Notes under the pieces: model-generated
Told to the model about the DNA's origin: nothing
The model's input: only the letters and a program-made list of their open reading frames with translations
Databases searched by the model: none
Made by a program: the position numbers and the translations under genes
Source of the DNA: Cyclobacteriaceae bacterium
GTDB lineage: Bacteria > Bacteroidota > Bacteroidia > Cytophagales > Cyclobacteriaceae
Assembly (NCBI GenBank): GCA_026003355.1
Contig: BPHC01000005.1
Location: 62,001-126,000, forward strand
Direction of reading: 5' to 3'
DNA length: 64,000 nucleotides
In this document: positions 27,896-34,974 of the stretch, in pieces
Layout of the letters: each line of letters begins with the position of its first letter
How positions within the stretch are numbered: the stretch's first letter is position 1

Positions 27896-29842
27896 TCAAA
27901 ACTTTTCCGCACCAAAGTCGCCACGAAGGCGGCGGTAGCGTTTGCGGGCTTCGGCAGCATGCACGCTGCCCGGAAACCGGTTTATAAATTCCAGGTACAG
28001 TTCGCGTGCCACTTCTGCCTGTTGAAGGTGCATTTCATAAATCTCTGCTTTTTTAAACCAGGCATCATCGCACAGCACATCATCGGCATAATCCTGTATT
28101 ATCCGGTTCAACATTTCAATGCTTTTATCGAAGCGCTTTTGTTTTACATATACCCCGGCTTCCAGCCAGTATACTTCATCCAGTATGGCGTAATTCGGAA
28201 AGGTAGTCCAGGCGGTATCTTCCGGGTTTTTGATTCGCCCTTCTTTTATTTGTTCCATAAGCTTCAGGGCCTCATTTGTTTGGTTTTGTTTAAGCAGCAG
28301 CTCAGCCTTGGCCAGTGCCTTCAGGGCCATTCCTGATGAGTCCATAGCCAGGTTTTCTTTTATACGGATGCTGAGTTCCATGGCATCGTTGGCTATGGTG
28401 CGCGATGTGGCTTCCTTGAGCACATCCAGATGTTCGGCTGCCAGCCTGAAGTCGCCCCGGTAGTACCACAGCTGCGCATTGCGCAGTTTGGCTTCATAAC
28501 CGGGTTCGGTTTCTTTCATGCTTTTTTCCACCTGCGAATACAACAGTGTAGCTTCCCACCATTCGCCGGTAAGTGTGTAGATTTCTGCCAGGTTAAGTTT
28601 GGCCCGGGCCATCAGGTTATCGGGTACATGGCGCATGCGAATTACCTCTTGCAGCAGTTGCACGGCCTGGTCGTGCTGCTGCAGCCACTGGCTGTACAGC
28701 AGGGCCAGGTCGCTTTGGGCTTCGAGGGCTACCGGATCCGGAAGGTTTTCGGCAATAAACTGCTTGTAGTCGGCTACGAGGCTTAGCACCGAGTCGCGGG
28801 GTATAGGATAGTGCTGCCGGAATGCCGCTTCGCGCGTTTGAATAAGCCCGCGTCGGGCTTCAACGTAATATGGCCCCTTCGGGTAAGTTCGCAACAGCCA
28901 CTGATAGGCCATCCGGGCTGCTTCGTAGTCGCCATTGTTTACGGCCAGCCGCGCCACTTCGGCTGTTTGCTCGCCATAAGTGCCGGTTCGCCTGTCGAGT
29001 GCGCGTGCCTGCACCAGCGCACCGAAAAAATTCTTTTGCTGTACATACAACCAGATGAGCAAATCGGTGTACACGGCGCGATTGGGATTGGCTTGAACAT
29101 GTTCCAGCAGCTTGGCTTCGAGCACATCCATATCGGCCGGCTCCAGCAACACCTGCAATACATTTTTCACATACTGCAGGTTGTAGTTATCCTGGGTTAC
29201 ATAGGCCAGGTATTCATCGACCATCTGTTCTTTTTGTCCCCGCACCCGGTACAGCATGGCCAGCTCCAGGCAAAAAACTGTGTTATTTTTATAAACCCTG
29301 CGCACTTCCTTATAAGCCTGAATGGCATATTCATGCAGCGATCGGGAAGTAAGATAATCGGCCAGTAATTTTATGTGCCCCATGTTGTGCGCATTCGCCT
29401 CAATGAGTTCGCGAATGGTTTTTTCGGCACGTGCCATATCGCCCGAACGGAAATACATCCAGGCCATGTCGCCCTGATAATTAATGTTTTCCGGATATTT
29501 TTTAACCAGCCGTGCCAGGTACTTCTGTGCCTCTTCATAGAGGGCGAGGTCGACCAGGGTGTTAAGGTAATTGTTGTGAATGTGGGGAATATTTGCATCT
29601 GACCGCGCCGCTTCGCGAAACAGTTCTACAGCCTTTTGTTTTTCGCCTTTCAGGTAATACTCATTGGCCAGTTGAACGAGTTGATTATCAGATTGTGCAT
29701 AAACTGATACAGTTATAAAAAATAATACTGTATTTAAGTATTTGTAATTGTTATTAACCGGCGTGGAATTGTGCGCAACCCAATTCCGGAATAAACGGAA
29801 AGCCGTTGTGCATATCTGGTGGATTGTAATGAACTGATTCAT
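27896..29842 (-). CDS. Exported tetratricopeptide-repeat protein
   Basis: All-helical TPR protein of about 648 residues from the ATG at 29842. Successive 34-residue repeats run through most of it, for example NQLVQLANEYYLKGEKQKAVELFREAA, YQGDMAWMYFRSGDMARAEK, ARAKLNLAEIYTLTGEWWEAT and the final DAWFKKAEIYEMHLQQ; no catalytic domain is present. The likely signal peptide (LNTVLFFITVSVYAQ) begins about 33 residues in, so the annotated ATG may not be the true start and a non-ATG codon nearer to it cannot be excluded. The 5' end is in an unusually AT-rich stretch (29703-29757). Role unknown. Confidence 0.85.
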   Translation of the reverse strand: MNQFITIHQICTTAFRLFRNWVAHNSTPVNNNYKYLNTVLFFITVSVYAQSDNQLVQLANEYYLKGEKQKAVELFREAARSDANIPHIHNNYLNTLVDLALYEEAQKYLARLVKKYPENINYQGDMAWMYFRSGDMARAEKTIRELIEANAHNMGHIKLLADYLTSRSLHEYAIQAYKEVRRVYKNNTVFCLELAMLYRVRGQKEQMVDEYLAYVTQDNYNLQYVKNVLQVLLEPADMDVLEAKLLEHVQANPNRAVYTDLLIWLYVQQKNFFGALVQARALDRRTGTYGEQTAEVARLAVNNGDYEAARMAYQWLLRTYPKGPYYVEARRGLIQTREAAFRQHYPIPRDSVLSLVADYKQFIAENLPDPVALEAQSDLALLYSQWLQQHDQAVQLLQEVIRMRHVPDNLMARAKLNLAEIYTLTGEWWEATLLYSQVEKSMKETEPGYEAKLRNAQLWYYRGDFRLAAEHLDVLKEATSRTIANDAMELSIRIKENLAMDSSGMALKALAKAELLLKQNQTNEALKLMEQIKEGRIKNPEDTAWTTFPNYAILDEVYWLEAGVYVKQKRFDKSIEMLNRIIQDYADDVLCDDAWFKKAEIYEMHLQQAEVARELYLEFINRFPGSVHAAEARKRYRRLRGDFGAEKF

Positions 29843-30027
29843 AGCGCGCAAAACCATTAACCAACAATACAACGCCTGGTGTTAATGAAAAGTTGTGGGT
29901 AAGTGGCACCTGATAAATTGTGAATAAGCAGCTTTTTATCAACAGACAAAAACGCATAGCTGGTTTTGGGACTTAACCGGTTATGGATGGTTTTACTTAT
30001 CCACATCTTTTGGTGGCCTTATCCACA
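29694..30027. other. Cluster of DnaA boxes with AT-rich element: candidate replication origin
   Basis: Exact TTATNCACA 9-mers are TTATGCACA (29694-29702, minus), TTATTCACA (29919-29927, minus), TTATCCACA (29997-30005, plus) and TTATCCACA (30019-30027, plus). One-mismatch boxes are TTACCCACA (29894-29902, minus) and TTATCAACA (29936-29944, plus). By count, 29700-29757 has 9 G/C in 58 bases (84% AT), a possible unwinding element. The span covers the 5' end of the TPR gene, the 150-bp gap and the last codons of the Big_5 lipoprotein gene. A fixed 8-base pattern on both strands is expected about once per 32 kb by chance. Confidence 0.6.
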
Positions 30028-31705
30028 GAGGTCCAACTTCCCAGTTGGCTTTTGCGGGTATATCGAACGTATTGTTTTCATAGTAAAACCAAACGGGCTC
30101 CGGCTCCTGTTTGAGGTAAAAGTTACCCCAGTCCCATTTGCCGTTTTCGTTGGTGTCAATAAAAGCCTTTAAGCGGTACGTGTCCGGTGGCAATTCGCTG
30201 AAGCGTCCACTATGGCCCGTACTGCTGGCAACCAGTTTGTTTTTACCGGTTACCTGTACAATGCACAGGTTGTTGGTTTCTACCTCATAGAGCAGTGTTG
30301 AAAATTCTTCAGGCTTTAAAAGTTTAATCTGACTTGTAAGCATGGCAGAAGAATCATTATCTGCAGATATGAATGCGCCTTTCGCAATTATGATGTGATT
30401 AAGCAGATGCCTGTAGTCGGGTGCAGCTTTTGCCAGTCCTCCTCCCTGCCGCGCAATGGCGGCTGGCTTTCGTTGTTGTTTCTGTTCAAAATTTAATGGC
30501 ACGGGCAGGTGCTTGCTGAAGGCAGCCTCGGTTCGGGTCTCGTTCCATGTGAAATCGCTGCTTTCAAATCGTATGCTTTGGGTTGTATCGGCATGGATGA
30601 AAATGCTGTCGGCAATGGTGCGTACAACCGGTTTGCTAAAATTTATCTTACCGATAATCATATTTTTTGTGTCGTAATACCGCACACCGTTTACAGTCAG
30701 TTCAAACTTATCGGTCATGATGCCCTGTCTGGCAAATTTTATATAAAGCAGGGTATCTATCTTATTGCCAATGCTGTCGTTGCAGGTAAGTTGTGCCGCC
30801 AGGCTGTCGGTAAGGTTAAAGGTGTTGTACAGATTAATAACAGATGGTTCCGGAAAGGAATAATACAACGTAACCAATGTATCGGCTGGTTTTAATTTTA
30901 CATCCAGAAATCCTTTATTGAGCCTTATTAAAAACACATTGCCCACCGGACGTGCCGCCAAAAGCTTTAATGGTCGCATGTCTAATTTAAGCACAGAGAG
31001 GTTGATGTCCAGATTTTGATGGATTAATTCCACGGGCTGGCTTTTAAATCCGAATATTTCTGACTGGCTGTCGACAAGAAGATTTTTATTTTTGTCGAGA
31101 AAAGCATAAACAAGGTATTTGCCTTTTTTAATATTGTCCAGCTGATAATTCCCCGCCTTATCGCTCAGAGTAAAATACCGGGGTTTATGTTTGAAAATGT
31201 CGGTTGTATCCGTTGCATGGGCCAGCGCCACTATGCAATTTTCAACAGGCTCACCGGTTAGGTGATGTACCACCCTGCCCCTGATAATAAGCGTATCGAT
31301 ATGCGGACCTGTACTGAAAGCCAGTTTCAGATTATGCGCCGGATTTCGTTCGGTAATATCCTGCACGGCTTCGCGGAAATTAATGGTATAGGTGGTGGTG
31401 TCCTGCAGGGGCTGATTGAAGCGGATGTAAATTTTATTGCGCCGTGCGGTAACCTCCAGTTTTTTGTTGTCGATCGGGGGTATTACGATAAGCTGCTCCC
31501 TGGGATTGTTCAGCTGTACATATTCGTTAAAAGTAAGCACCACCTGGTTACCTTTGAATGAAGTTTGCCGGTTGGCGGGAGTAGCTTCCACCAGCCCGGG
31601 AGGTGTCGTGTCTTTTTCGCCCCCGGTGGGCATGCCTTGCTGTGCACAGGAACCGAGCAGTAGCGCAATACATCCGAAGTATAATGATTTTACAGAAAGG
31701 CTCAT
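29993..31705 (-). CDS. Big_5 (Ig-like) domain lipoprotein
   Basis: Lipoprotein of 570 residues with lipobox LLLGSC (Cys about 20). GGEKDTTPPGLVEATPANRQ opens an Ig-like Big_5 (SbsA-type) domain (about 30-135) of the kind common in Bacteroidota surface proteins. A carboxypeptidase-regulatory-like fold follows (IIRGRVVHHLTGEPVENCIV through KGKYLVYAFLDKNKN, about 140-215), and a second one may be near the end (YRLKAFIDTNENGKWDWGNF). Function is unknown. It starts 3 bases after the methyltransferase stop, within the mnmG gene series, and its final codons encode the two tandem DnaA boxes. Confidence 0.88.
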   Translation of the reverse strand: MSLSVKSLYFGCIALLLGSCAQQGMPTGGEKDTTPPGLVEATPANRQTSFKGNQVVLTFNEYVQLNNPREQLIVIPPIDNKKLEVTARRNKIYIRFNQPLQDTTTYTINFREAVQDITERNPAHNLKLAFSTGPHIDTLIIRGRVVHHLTGEPVENCIVALAHATDTTDIFKHKPRYFTLSDKAGNYQLDNIKKGKYLVYAFLDKNKNLLVDSQSEIFGFKSQPVELIHQNLDINLSVLKLDMRPLKLLAARPVGNVFLIRLNKGFLDVKLKPADTLVTLYYSFPEPSVINLYNTFNLTDSLAAQLTCNDSIGNKIDTLLYIKFARQGIMTDKFELTVNGVRYYDTKNMIIGKINFSKPVVRTIADSIFIHADTTQSIRFESSDFTWNETRTEAAFSKHLPVPLNFEQKQQRKPAAIARQGGGLAKAAPDYRHLLNHIIIAKGAFISADNDSSAMLTSQIKLLKPEEFSTLLYEVETNNLCIVQVTGKNKLVASSTGHSGRFSELPPDTYRLKAFIDTNENGKWDWGNFYLKQEPEPVWFYYENNTFDIPAKANWEVGPLWIRPPKDVDK

Positions 31706-31708
31706 CAG

Positions 31709-32593
31709 TTATTTCATGGCAAGGTAAAGCAAACTGGAGTATGCACCTGTTTTTCGTGCATGCAGGTTGCTTTTAAGTGCTGTGAAAAAGCCTTTCAGGA
31801 AGCGCGCCGGCAAATTTTGGTTCTTTCTGCAGGCTTCGCTTAACAGGCTAACATAATAGGCGTCCCAGGGCATGGGCAAAATCTGATGCAGGGTAAAACC
31901 CTGTTGGTTTAACAGCGTTTTCATGGCTTGTCTGGTAAAATGCCACAGGTGGCGGGGAACATCAAAACCTGCCCAGTGTTGCCGGTAGTGAAGGGCATCG
32001 AAACTGTCAGGGTTGGGCACCGCAATAACCAGCAAACCACCCGGCTCAAGTAATTCGCGGCATCTCTTAAGGGTGGTGTCCGGCCGGTGCAGGTGTTCGA
32101 GCACGTGCCACAGGGTGATAACCCGGTAAGACTTTTGCGGTAATTCATCAAGACGGGTAAACAGCCTTTGGTTGAGTATGTTTTCTGCCTGCCGTCTTGC
32201 GATATTGGCTGGCTCCACTCCGGTTACTTCCCAGCCGCTACGCTTCATTTCATGCAAAAACGCACCGGTCCCGCATCCTAAATCGAGCAAACTTCCTTTA
32301 GGATATTTTTTTTCAATGAGCTTTCGCTTGCCTGTAAGGGCGATACGTCTTACGGCAAGGTAAAGCAATTTTAGCATGCGATTATCATGTTTACCGGTAT
32401 GCGATATGTAATTGGATGAGGCGTAATACCGTCCGATTTGATCTTCATCTGGCTGCGGAATGGTAGCCAGCAAGCCGCACTGCGTGCAACGGTATAGATT
32501 AAATGGTTCACGGGTTACGCCGAAATCCTGCGTGGCCAGATAATATTCAAACTGCGCATTGTGGCACGCAGGGCAGCTAAGGGTTACGTTCAT
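31709..32593 (-). CDS. Class I SAM-dependent methyltransferase with N-terminal zinc ribbon
   Basis: Protein of 294 residues. N-terminal CPACHNAQ and CTQCGLL supply two CxxC pairs for a zinc ribbon, then the Rossmann methyltransferase starts at about residue 100 with LLDLGCGTGAFLHEM (SAM motif I), VEPANIA, and LWHVLEHLHRPD. This layout is common in sugar- or lipid-carrier-related methyltransferases of Bacteroidota, acceptor unknown. The start codon overlaps the mnmG stop (TGATG), so it is translationally coupled to mnmG. Confidence 0.9.
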   Translation of the reverse strand: MNVTLSCPACHNAQFEYYLATQDFGVTREPFNLYRCTQCGLLATIPQPDEDQIGRYYASSNYISHTGKHDNRMLKLLYLAVRRIALTGKRKLIEKKYPKGSLLDLGCGTGAFLHEMKRSGWEVTGVEPANIARRQAENILNQRLFTRLDELPQKSYRVITLWHVLEHLHRPDTTLKRCRELLEPGGLLVIAVPNPDSFDALHYRQHWAGFDVPRHLWHFTRQAMKTLLNQQGFTLHQILPMPWDAYYVSLLSEACRKNQNLPARFLKGFFTALKSNLHARKTGAYSSLLYLAMK

Positions 32594-34458
32594 CAGCGCC
32601 CAAGATAAATGGTAAGAACCGAAATATCAGCAGGGCTAACACCGCTTATGCGGCTTGCCTGGCCGATGGTTCGCGGACGGATGCGTTTTAGTTTTTCCCT
32701 CCCTTCGGCCGAAAGTGCCTTTACCCTGTCGTAGTCAAAATCCGGACGTATGGAAAAGGCTTCCAGACTGTTCATTTTTTCTACCATCTTTTGCTCGCGC
32801 TCAATATAGGTTTGGTACTTCACGGCTATTTCGGCCTGCTCCACGACTTCGTTTTCATAGTTGCTTAGCGTGCGGTCTATTTCCGGATGGAGGTTGCGCA
32901 AGGCTTCGGCTGTTATTTCGGGCCGGCGCAGCAGGGTTGCCAGGTTTATTTTATCGCGTATTGTTGCCGAACGCATTGCTTCCAGGGCATTGTTTACCTG
33001 GTCGGCATGTACCCGAATGGTTTCCAGCCTTTGTACCAGATCGGCCACCTGCTGTTTTTTGTGCCGTACCCGTTCTGCCCTTTCGGCCGAAGCCAGGCCC
33101 AGTTCATGTCCTTTTTCCGTCAGGCGGATGTCGGCATTGTCCTGTCTGAGTAGGATGCGGTATTCTGCCCGGCTGGTAAACATTCTGTATGGTTCCTGGG
33201 TGCCTTTGGTAATGAGGTCGTCAATCAGCACCCCGATGTAGGCTTCTGAGCGTTCCAGGATAAACGGGGCCTTGCCGTGTACTTTGTTGTGGGCATTGAT
33301 GCCCGCCATAAGGCCCTGGCAGGCCGCTTCTTCGTATCCGGTTGTACCGTTTATTTGGCCAGCAAAATACAGATTATCAATTAGTTGCGTTTCCAACGTT
33401 GCTTTTAGCTGCGTAGGAGGAAAGAAATCATATTCTATGGCATAGCCCGGGCGAAACATTTTGGCATTTTCAAAGCCAGGTATCTTTTTAAGGGCTTTGT
33501 ACTGTATATCTTCCGGAAGGGAGGTAGAGAAGCCGTTCACATAGATTTCAATGGTTTTCCATCCTTCGGGTTCTACAAAAATCTGATGGCGCTCCCTTTC
33601 GGCAAACCGGTTTATTTTATCTTCTATCGAGGGGCAATAGCGCGGACCCAGGCCCTGGATGCGTCCGGAGAACATGGGCGATTTGTCAAACCCCTGTTTA
33701 AGGACATCGTGTACGGCCTGATTGGTGTAGGTAATCCAGCAGCTTAATTGCCGCGACAGGGGTTGGGTTTCGGTGCCGAAGGAGAACTTTCCGGGTTTTT
33801 CGTCTCCTTTTTGTTCTTCCATTCTGGAGTAATCCAGGGTACGGCCATCGATTCGGGGTGGGGTACCTGTTTTCATTCTTCCCGATTCGAAGCCAAGGCT
33901 TTTTAGTTGTTCGGTTAACCCGGTAGCGGCACGTTCACCTGCCCTTCCGCCGCCAAACTGTTTTTCGCCAATATGGATAATGCCATTCAGAAAGGTGCCG
34001 TTGGTAAGCACCACGGCCTTTGCGGGTATTTCAATGCCCAGCGAGGTACGTATTCCGGTTACGCGCTGGTCTTTTATCAGCAGGGCGCTGACCATTTCCT
34101 GCCACATGTCGAGATTTGGGATGCCCTCCAGTGCGAGGCGCCACTCTTCTGCAAAGCGCATGCGGTCGTTTTGGGTTCTGGGGCTCCACATGGCCGGGCC
34201 TTTGGAGCGGTTAAGCATCCGGAATTGAACCATGGATTTATCGGATACAATCCCGGAGAGTCCGCCCAGTGCATCAATTTCGCGCACAATTTGCCCCTTT
34301 GCCACCCCGCCCATTGCGGGATTGCACGACATGTGGGCGATGGTGGCCATGTTCATGGTTACCAGTAAAACCTTGGAGCCCATTTTGGCGGCCGCTGCCG
34401 CTGCTTCGCATCCGGCATGCCCCCCTCCTACAACGATAATATCGTATTCCGGAAACAT
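32593..34458 (-). CDS. mnmG: MnmG (GidA), tRNA U34 carboxymethylaminomethyl modification enzyme
   Basis: FAD-dependent tRNA-modifying enzyme, 621 residues, acting with MnmE on wobble U34. N-terminal FAD-binding [19 protein letters not shown], then [31 protein letters not shown] and [28 protein letters not shown] signatures; the C-terminal helical tRNA-binding domain closes with [17 protein letters not shown]. Length is normal. Upstream is a 93-bp gap to ybeY holding two parS-type palindromes. In many bacteria mnmG lies near oriC, which fits the DnaA-box cluster 2.6 kb beyond its 3' end. Confidence 0.97.
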
Positions 34459-34469
34459 AACTGCTATTT

Positions 34470-34485
34470 GGTTTCACGTGAAACC
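34470..34485. other. parS-type 16-bp palindrome (site 1)
   Basis: GGTTTCACGTGAAACC is fully self-complementary and contains GTTTCACGTGAAAC, the inner 14 bases of the widely conserved chromosomal parS consensus (TGTTTCACGTGAAACA) bound by ParB/Spo0J. Located 12 bases upstream of the mnmG start. Confidence 0.8.
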
Positions 34486-34521: not shown

Positions 34522-34530
34522 TGTGGATAA
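34522..34530 (-). other. DnaA box TTATCCACA between the two parS-type sites
   Basis: The minus strand reads TTATCCACA exactly. A half-similar TTTCCACA lies just left of it on the plus strand, making a loose inverted pair (TCCACA-TT-TGTGGA at 34515-34528). Confidence 0.5.
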
Positions 34531-34537
34531 ACCAGAA

Positions 34538-34553
34538 AGTTCCACGTGGAACT
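34538..34553. other. parS-like 16-bp palindrome (site 2, variant)
   Basis: AGTTCCACGTGGAACT is perfectly self-complementary and differs from site 1 symmetrically (C/G in place of T/A next to the CACGTG core). It overlaps the end of ybeY by two bases. A second symmetric copy 68 bp from site 1 argues for a ParB-binding pair, though variant ParB boxes can also be bound weakly or by paralogues. Confidence 0.65.
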
Positions 34554-34974
34554 ACCGCAAAGATAGGCAGGCCTCTTCTTTTTTTCGCATGTATTCCTTT
34601 TCCCCGGGTTTTTTGTCGCCATATCCCATCAGATGAAGCAAACCGTGCGCCATTACCCGGTGCAGTTCGTCAGTAAATGAACACCGGTATTTGCGGGCAT
34701 TTTCGCGAACCCGGGGAATGCTGATAAACACATCCCCTTCAATGTCCTCTCCTTCTGTATGATATTGAAAGGTAATAATGTCAGTCAGGGTACGGTGATT
34801 CAGGTGGGCTATATTCAGGCGAAGCAGGTATCGGTCGGAACAGAATATGTAGTTTAAATTGCCAATTTCCTTGCCCTCCTGTCTGGCGGCCTTTAACAGC
34901 CACCTTTTTGTTTTAAGCGGGTTTGGCAGCCTAAACTGTGTGCCTTCGTAGAAATAACGAATTGGCAGGCCCAT
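34552..34974 (-). CDS. ybeY: YbeY, rRNA maturation endoribonuclease
   Basis: Zinc-dependent RNase for 16S rRNA 3'-end processing and ribosome quality control, 140 residues. The catalytic HRVMAHGLLHLMGYGD carries the HGxLHLxGY motif; the usual third metal His is replaced by Asp (GYGD), as in other Bacteroidota YbeY proteins. The upstream TDIITFQY strand is also conserved. The ATG overlaps the stop of the GHKL ATPase gene (TGATG), so it is translationally coupled to it. 93 bp separates it from mnmG. Confidence 0.92.
   Translation of the reverse strand: MGLPIRYFYEGTQFRLPNPLKTKRWLLKAARQEGKEIGNLNYIFCSDRYLLRLNIAHLNHRTLTDIITFQYHTEGEDIEGDVFISIPRVRENARKYRCSFTDELHRVMAHGLLHLMGYGDKKPGEKEYMRKKEEACLSLR

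Follow-up and report, generated by a model that had tools for sequence, protein, structure and literature searches.

The stretch at 29.69–30.03 kb of the window, around the gap between a gene for a TPR protein and a gene for a Big_5 lipoprotein, is very probably the chromosomal replication origin (oriC) of this Cyclobacteriaceae bacterium, with parS sites nearby. The window is the whole stretch of 64,000 nucleotides that was analysed; it equals C5:62001–126000 (the C5 coordinate minus 62000 gives the window position) in a draft genome that comprises 15 contigs and 2.76 Mb. Computed from the sequences are a cluster of DnaA boxes, its rarity and recurrence, a pair of parS sites, and a turn of GC skew in relatives. 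The skew turn and the recurrence of the cluster at the orthologous gap lend support to the original prediction, which had named this site a candidate replication origin.

The box cluster and the adjoining genes

Features of the locus, with window coordinates and strand:

27896–29872, minus: gene for a TPR protein, left edge of the gap; longest frame, true start uncertain; an ortholog lies beside the gap in relatives
29694–29702, minus: DnaA box TTATGCACA (box 1), exact, in the TPR coding sequence
29700–29757, no strand: AT-richest 58 bp of the window (9 G/C of 58), candidate DNA unwinding element
29894–29902, minus: one-mismatch DnaA box TTACCCACA (C5:91894)
29919–29927, minus: DnaA box TTATTCACA, exact
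29936–29944, plus: one-mismatch DnaA box TTATCAACA (C5:91936)
29993–31705, minus: gene for a Big_5 (Ig-like) protein, probably a lipoprotein, right edge of the gap; its last codons hold the tandem pair
29997–30005, plus: DnaA box TTATCCACA, first member of the tandem pair, exact; the pair spacing recurs in relatives
30019–30027, plus: DnaA box TTATCCACA, second member, 22 bp on, exact; the spacing recurs in relatives
31709–32593, minus: methyltransferase gene, a frequent neighbour
32593–34458, minus: mnmG (gidA), GIDA E 3.9e-165
34471–34484, no strand: parS site 1 (GTTTCACGTGAAAC), one of two exact matches
34522–34530, minus: DnaA box TTATCCACA between both parS sites, exact
34539–34552, no strand: parS site 2 (GTTCCACGTGGAAC), the second exact match
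34552–34974, minus: ybeY, closing the parS gap, YbeY E 1.1e-24

Four exact TTATNCACA boxes within 334 bp (29694–30027), two one-mismatch boxes among them, and a tandem TTATCCACA pair 22 bp apart (29997 and 30019, plus strand) had been claimed from the letters alone, and all were confirmed at their positions. The cluster is beyond chance. None of 300 dinucleotide shuffles contained at least four boxes per 334 bp, and the largest shuffled cluster, of two boxes, arose in 2 of the 300. Exact boxes number 8 in the whole window against a mean of 1.96 expected, a count that 0 of 100 shuffles reached. Along 226 kb of its own contig the cluster scored 8 and the runner-up 3. All 15 contigs together contain 42 TTATCCACA sites versus 14 for the reversed motif, and the tandem pair comprises the sole two of these 42 that are less than 100 bp apart.

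The 84% AT segment adjoining box 1 (29700–29757) was likewise found as described. Just 2 of the 63,943 58-mers in the window are as AT-rich, both located at the cluster. No clear or convincing DnaA-trio was seen at the cluster by eye.

Part of the cluster had been said to lie inside coding sequence, and this is borne out. Box 1 is positioned in the TPR coding sequence, within what appears from the translation to be a signal peptide, and exact boxes 3 and 4 (the tandem pair) are within the last codons of the lipoprotein gene, while the remaining sites between them all fall in the gap. Because its codons also fix its sequence, box 1 is the weakest case among the boxes. An ATG start pattern for the TPR gene near a DnaA box was seen in 11 of 13 genus relatives (L041–L054). 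This pattern is absent in the window (29690–29872), L045 and L050, and is doubtful by eye in L054.

Rightward of the lipoprotein gene are found the methyltransferase gene, mnmG, and the mnmG–ybeY gap with the parS pair and a further box. Among the 80 best matches to the MnmG of the window, the best named ones are from Cyclobacteriaceae, Flammeovirgaceae and other Cytophagales.

Recurrence of the cluster in relatives

The 20 relatives first examined were picked via parS; parS is located between mnmG and ybeY in all 20, and matches to the TPR, lipoprotein, methyltransferase, mnmG and ybeY genes were all found in 15. For the survey of the gap, 101 loci were reduced to 89 by the removal of 5 duplicates and 7 loci that were too short or had no lipoprotein match. 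At each locus the 600-bp stretch beside the lipoprotein stop codon was searched for near-boxes, meaning TTATNCACA-type sites with at most one mismatch. Conservation of the boxes had been proposed as a check, and at least three near-boxes were indeed present at the orthologous gap in 73 of the 89 loci, with the reversed motif giving 0 of 89; because some of them are closely related to one another (Larkinella, Dyadobacter, Algoriphagus), the 89 are not independent. Near-boxes average 6.12 per locus, whereas the reversed motif averages 0.26 and other parts of these loci 0.24, and at 75 of the 89 loci the count is above that of every other 600-bp stretch of the same locus. Over all 89 loci, the two bins that span 500 bp leftward from where the lipoprotein alignment ends contain 516 near-boxes versus 19 reversed. 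AT content over the same loci peaks at 71% in the bin 250–300 bp left of the lipoprotein stop codon, and is about 59% outside. Named loci with the cluster include Algoriphagus, Cyclobacterium, Fulvivirga, Roseivirga, Marinoscillum, Dyadobacter, Larkinella and Runella. The Algoriphagus loci gave no TPR match in tblastn searches at E 1e-5, where an absent match may reflect divergence, and still carry the box cluster.

Fewer than three near-boxes were present in the tested 600 bp at 16 of the 89 loci. Five loci with long gaps (L058, L059, L145, L147 and L177) contain 7, 8, 8, 5 and 9 near-boxes, respectively, further into the gap; counting these, 78 of the 89 loci have the cluster and 11 do not. 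The 11 consist of L049, L129 and nine loci from Pontibacter, Rufibacter, Adhaeribacter and Botryobacter. Ten loci from these four genera (L141, L144, L146, L157, L168, L170, L172, L176, L178 and L180) have no TPR match, and 9 of the 10 have fewer than three near-boxes; in these genera the origin may have moved or may use other boxes.

Twenty loci from other orders, taken from the parS places listed and not by random draw, were analyzed as well. Only 1 of these 20 had a strong TTATCCACA cluster less than 10 kb from parS; we accordingly make no claim for the class, and a class-wide box cluster was rejected.

Same-direction box pairs 20–23 bp apart are present at 44 of the 89 loci. Within 50 bp of the lipoprotein stop codon 106 boxes are oriented one way versus 13 the other, and same-direction plus-strand spacings of 20–23 bp number 61 against about 10 expected from random placement only. 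Within the genus, 6 of 14 loci (own included) contain such a pair, whose start lies −15 to +13 from the stop codon and whose members are 22–23 bp apart; a pair 20–23 bp apart at one mismatch is missing in the other 8 of the 14. That the genus pair shifts with respect to the stop codon while its spacing is kept suggests that selection acts on the DNA rather than on the protein. In an alignment of 10 of the 14 genus loci with the gap, own included, the invariant positions are TTnTnnACA in the first box and nnATnnACA in the second, and the sequence between the two boxes is gap-free.

We tentatively suggest, as a possibility somewhat short of probable, that an oriC common to much of the Cytophagales has its working parts partly in protein-coding sequence, with the final codons of the lipoprotein gene containing tandem boxes spaced by about two helical turns, and the AT-rich, Asn-rich first codons of the TPR gene containing an opening element. 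If this were so, DNA replication would constrain the ends of two proteins, the lipoprotein and the TPR protein.

parS sites, GC skew and alternative readings

Two parS-type sites and mnmG had been reported near the cluster, and this proved correct, the sites being located in the mnmG–ybeY gap at a distance of 4.4 kb. Exact parS (GTTYCACGTGRAAC) occurs only twice in the 15 contigs, both times at 34.5 kb. All 17 genomes of the genus and 33 of 37 from the family have exactly two such sites, own genome counted in both, and at least one parS is present in 53 of 59 genomes of the genus, family and order and in 130 of 149 across the class. We infer that the pair is an origin-proximal centromere bound by ParB; the genome has a single ParB_N match (C2:226603–226884). 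One Bacteroidia genome (G091, C24:13203–13809) has seven tandem parS sites about 99 bp apart and twelve in all. A two-mismatch parS was present 29–35 bp upstream of the mnmG start in 12 of the 17 loci examined for such a site. It consists of TGTTCCACGTGGAA followed by AC, AT or TG, and is found in Larkinella and Dyadobacter loci (L148–L152, L169, L137, L140, L142, L153, L159 and L161), where it perhaps represents a changed ParB target.

The absence of dnaA from the window was also correctly noted: the single Bac_DnaA match in the genome is on another contig (C2:69027–69512, E 9.6e-64). This dnaA locus (L001, 3.5 kb) was considered as a rival origin and contains three near-boxes, two of them adjoining.

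A minimum of cumulative GC skew had been anticipated near the cluster, an expectation that held in relatives; the own genome is a draft, and its contig gave no clear minimum. Three relatives with a chromosome-sized parS contig were sampled in 20-kb stretches (G014, n = 40; G004 and G028, n = 20 each), and in all three the skew turns from negative to positive near the orthologous locus. The parS position is inside the range of within-10% step fits in 3 of 3, and permutations fitting equally well numbered 0 of 60 in each. For G014 the five best fits are at 862–912 kb and the within-10% fits at 777–929 kb, with parS at 922 kb; for G004 these values are 223–243 kb, 20–405 kb and 219 kb, and for G028 1.65–1.70 Mb, 1.65–1.89 Mb and 1.754 Mb. 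In a contiguous 225-kb stretch of G014, cumulative skew is lowest in the bin 910–915 kb, on a rather flat floor, 7–16 kb from both parS (921.8 kb) and the TPR/lipoprotein gap (about 926.4 kb). Third-position skew turns at the same place, in G014 only. The precision of the skew in relatives is tens to hundreds of kb, and 7–16 kb in G014 alone.

Raw cumulative skew of the own contig has no clear minimum at the cluster, its minima being located at about C5:75–85 kb and 155–160 kb, and the two arms differ slightly in raw skew (−0.0065 left, +0.0072 right). Fourfold-site skew is +0.052 on the left and −0.010 on the right, opposite in sign to the expectation for an origin, and apparently follows gene direction. 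Between 35001 and 38000 of the window a negative AT skew, down to −0.36, extends across a 1102-aa DUF4175 gene and is probably due to its coding sequence.

The start site could instead be the mnmG–ybeY gap, with its two parS sites and one DnaA box, in which case the TPR-side cluster would be an accessory DnaA site. The 4.4 kb that separate the two places are below the resolution of the skew minimum; parS is near mnmG in 19 of the 20 loci from other orders, which were picked via parS, and 12 of 13 genus relatives have a near-box in the mnmG–ybeY gap. However, only 8 of 66 other loci have a near-box there, whereas the TPR-side cluster is kept in most. Additionally, the 14 loci of Dyadobacter, Larkinella and Runella have no exact parS, yet harbor the largest clusters, with 11–18 near-boxes. 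We therefore consider a start in the mnmG–ybeY gap improbable.

Box clusters can be regulatory, and the boxes extend into the start of the TPR gene. The cluster could accordingly be a DnaA-titrating or reactivating site (datA/DARS-like), or a DnaA-controlled TPR promoter, and no origin. Against this, it is the strongest in its own contig and, for G004 and G028, in the 420 kb sampled per genome, although in G014 it is weak and ties with others; the one-mismatch scan covered the own contig and the sampled stretches of relatives, and a second cluster elsewhere is possible. The cluster also has parS nearby and falls in the region where the skew of relatives turns, and a purely regulatory site seems to us more improbable still. 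That the cluster arose by chance in AT-rich DNA, with codons fixing part of it as the location of box 1 and the tandem pair might suggest, can practically be dismissed, since no shuffle matched the cluster and its recurrence at the orthologous loci, set against the reversed motif, refutes chance computationally.

With the TPR/lipoprotein gap taken as oriC, known protein families suggest how it would work. DnaA, made from its gene elsewhere in the genome, would bind the boxes of the gap, and the same-direction pair 22 bp apart, about two helical turns, together with the boxes to its left, would seed DnaA assembly. The adjacent AT-rich stretch would then open, allowing helicase to load in both directions, while ParB would bind the two parS sites 4.4 kb off and sort the newly copied origins.

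Comparison with known origins

An E. coli-type oriC has a cluster of TTATNCACA-type boxes and an AT-rich stretch, with dnaA located elsewhere. The present locus is alike in its boxes, its AT-rich stretch, its mnmG neighbourhood and the distant dnaA. The E. coli-type origin is placed between gidA (mnmG) and mioC (PMC10225481, Ori-Finder 2022). Here, in contrast, methyltransferase and lipoprotein genes separate the boxes from mnmG, and parS is on the far side of mnmG.

Nearer to the present bacterium, the oriC of Cytophaga hutchinsonii was reportedly used by Xu et al. in 2012 in replicative oriC plasmids. The species belongs to the same broad bacterial group, and a piece of its oriC carries plasmids; whether or not the two origins share a place, the likeness drawn here is one of group. 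Published plasmid tables list oriC (PMC5288383, PMC5891637).

Within the Flavobacteriaceae, oriC was predicted beside mnmG with Ori-Finder 2022, in agreement with GC skew, for Mariniflexile litorale (PMC11278836) and Algorimicrobium (PMC12843772). In M. litorale the position of dnaA disagreed with the skew, and a figure legend of the same paper labels mnmG as ter, contrary to its own text (PMC11278836). These predictions share with the present locus the phylum Bacteroidota and an origin by mnmG, and differ from it in order. The oriC passages of these accounts name mnmG only, and describe no TPR/lipoprotein gap, 22-bp box pair or parS. For gut Bacteroidetes, parS clusters and GC skew are given as marking ori, backed by read coverage, with dnaA an unreliable marker (PMC10197239). 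The parS sites and skew at ori are in common with the present locus, though these are other bacteria and the relevant section gives no box-level description. For Melioribacter, which represents a deeper lineage, the position given for oriC is between dnaA and dnaN (PMC3534657).

Because mnmG-side origins, and origins marked by parS, skew and coverage, have been published, the kind of origin proposed here is already known. Within the openly accessible literature covered by our search, PMC13342612 included, no description of an oriC at the TPR/lipoprotein gap in Cytophagales was found. For Cytophagales, whose origin dnaA fails to mark, the locus would offer an oriC that is both precise and testable, of use for growth-rate estimates from metagenome read depth, for assembly rotation and for replicating plasmids for Cytophagales; the recurring 20–23 bp box spacing and the coding overlap pose questions open to bench work. 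To the systems above the present analysis adds the TPR/lipoprotein gap, found again across much of the order, together with paired boxes that are spaced by about two helical turns and overlap two gene ends.
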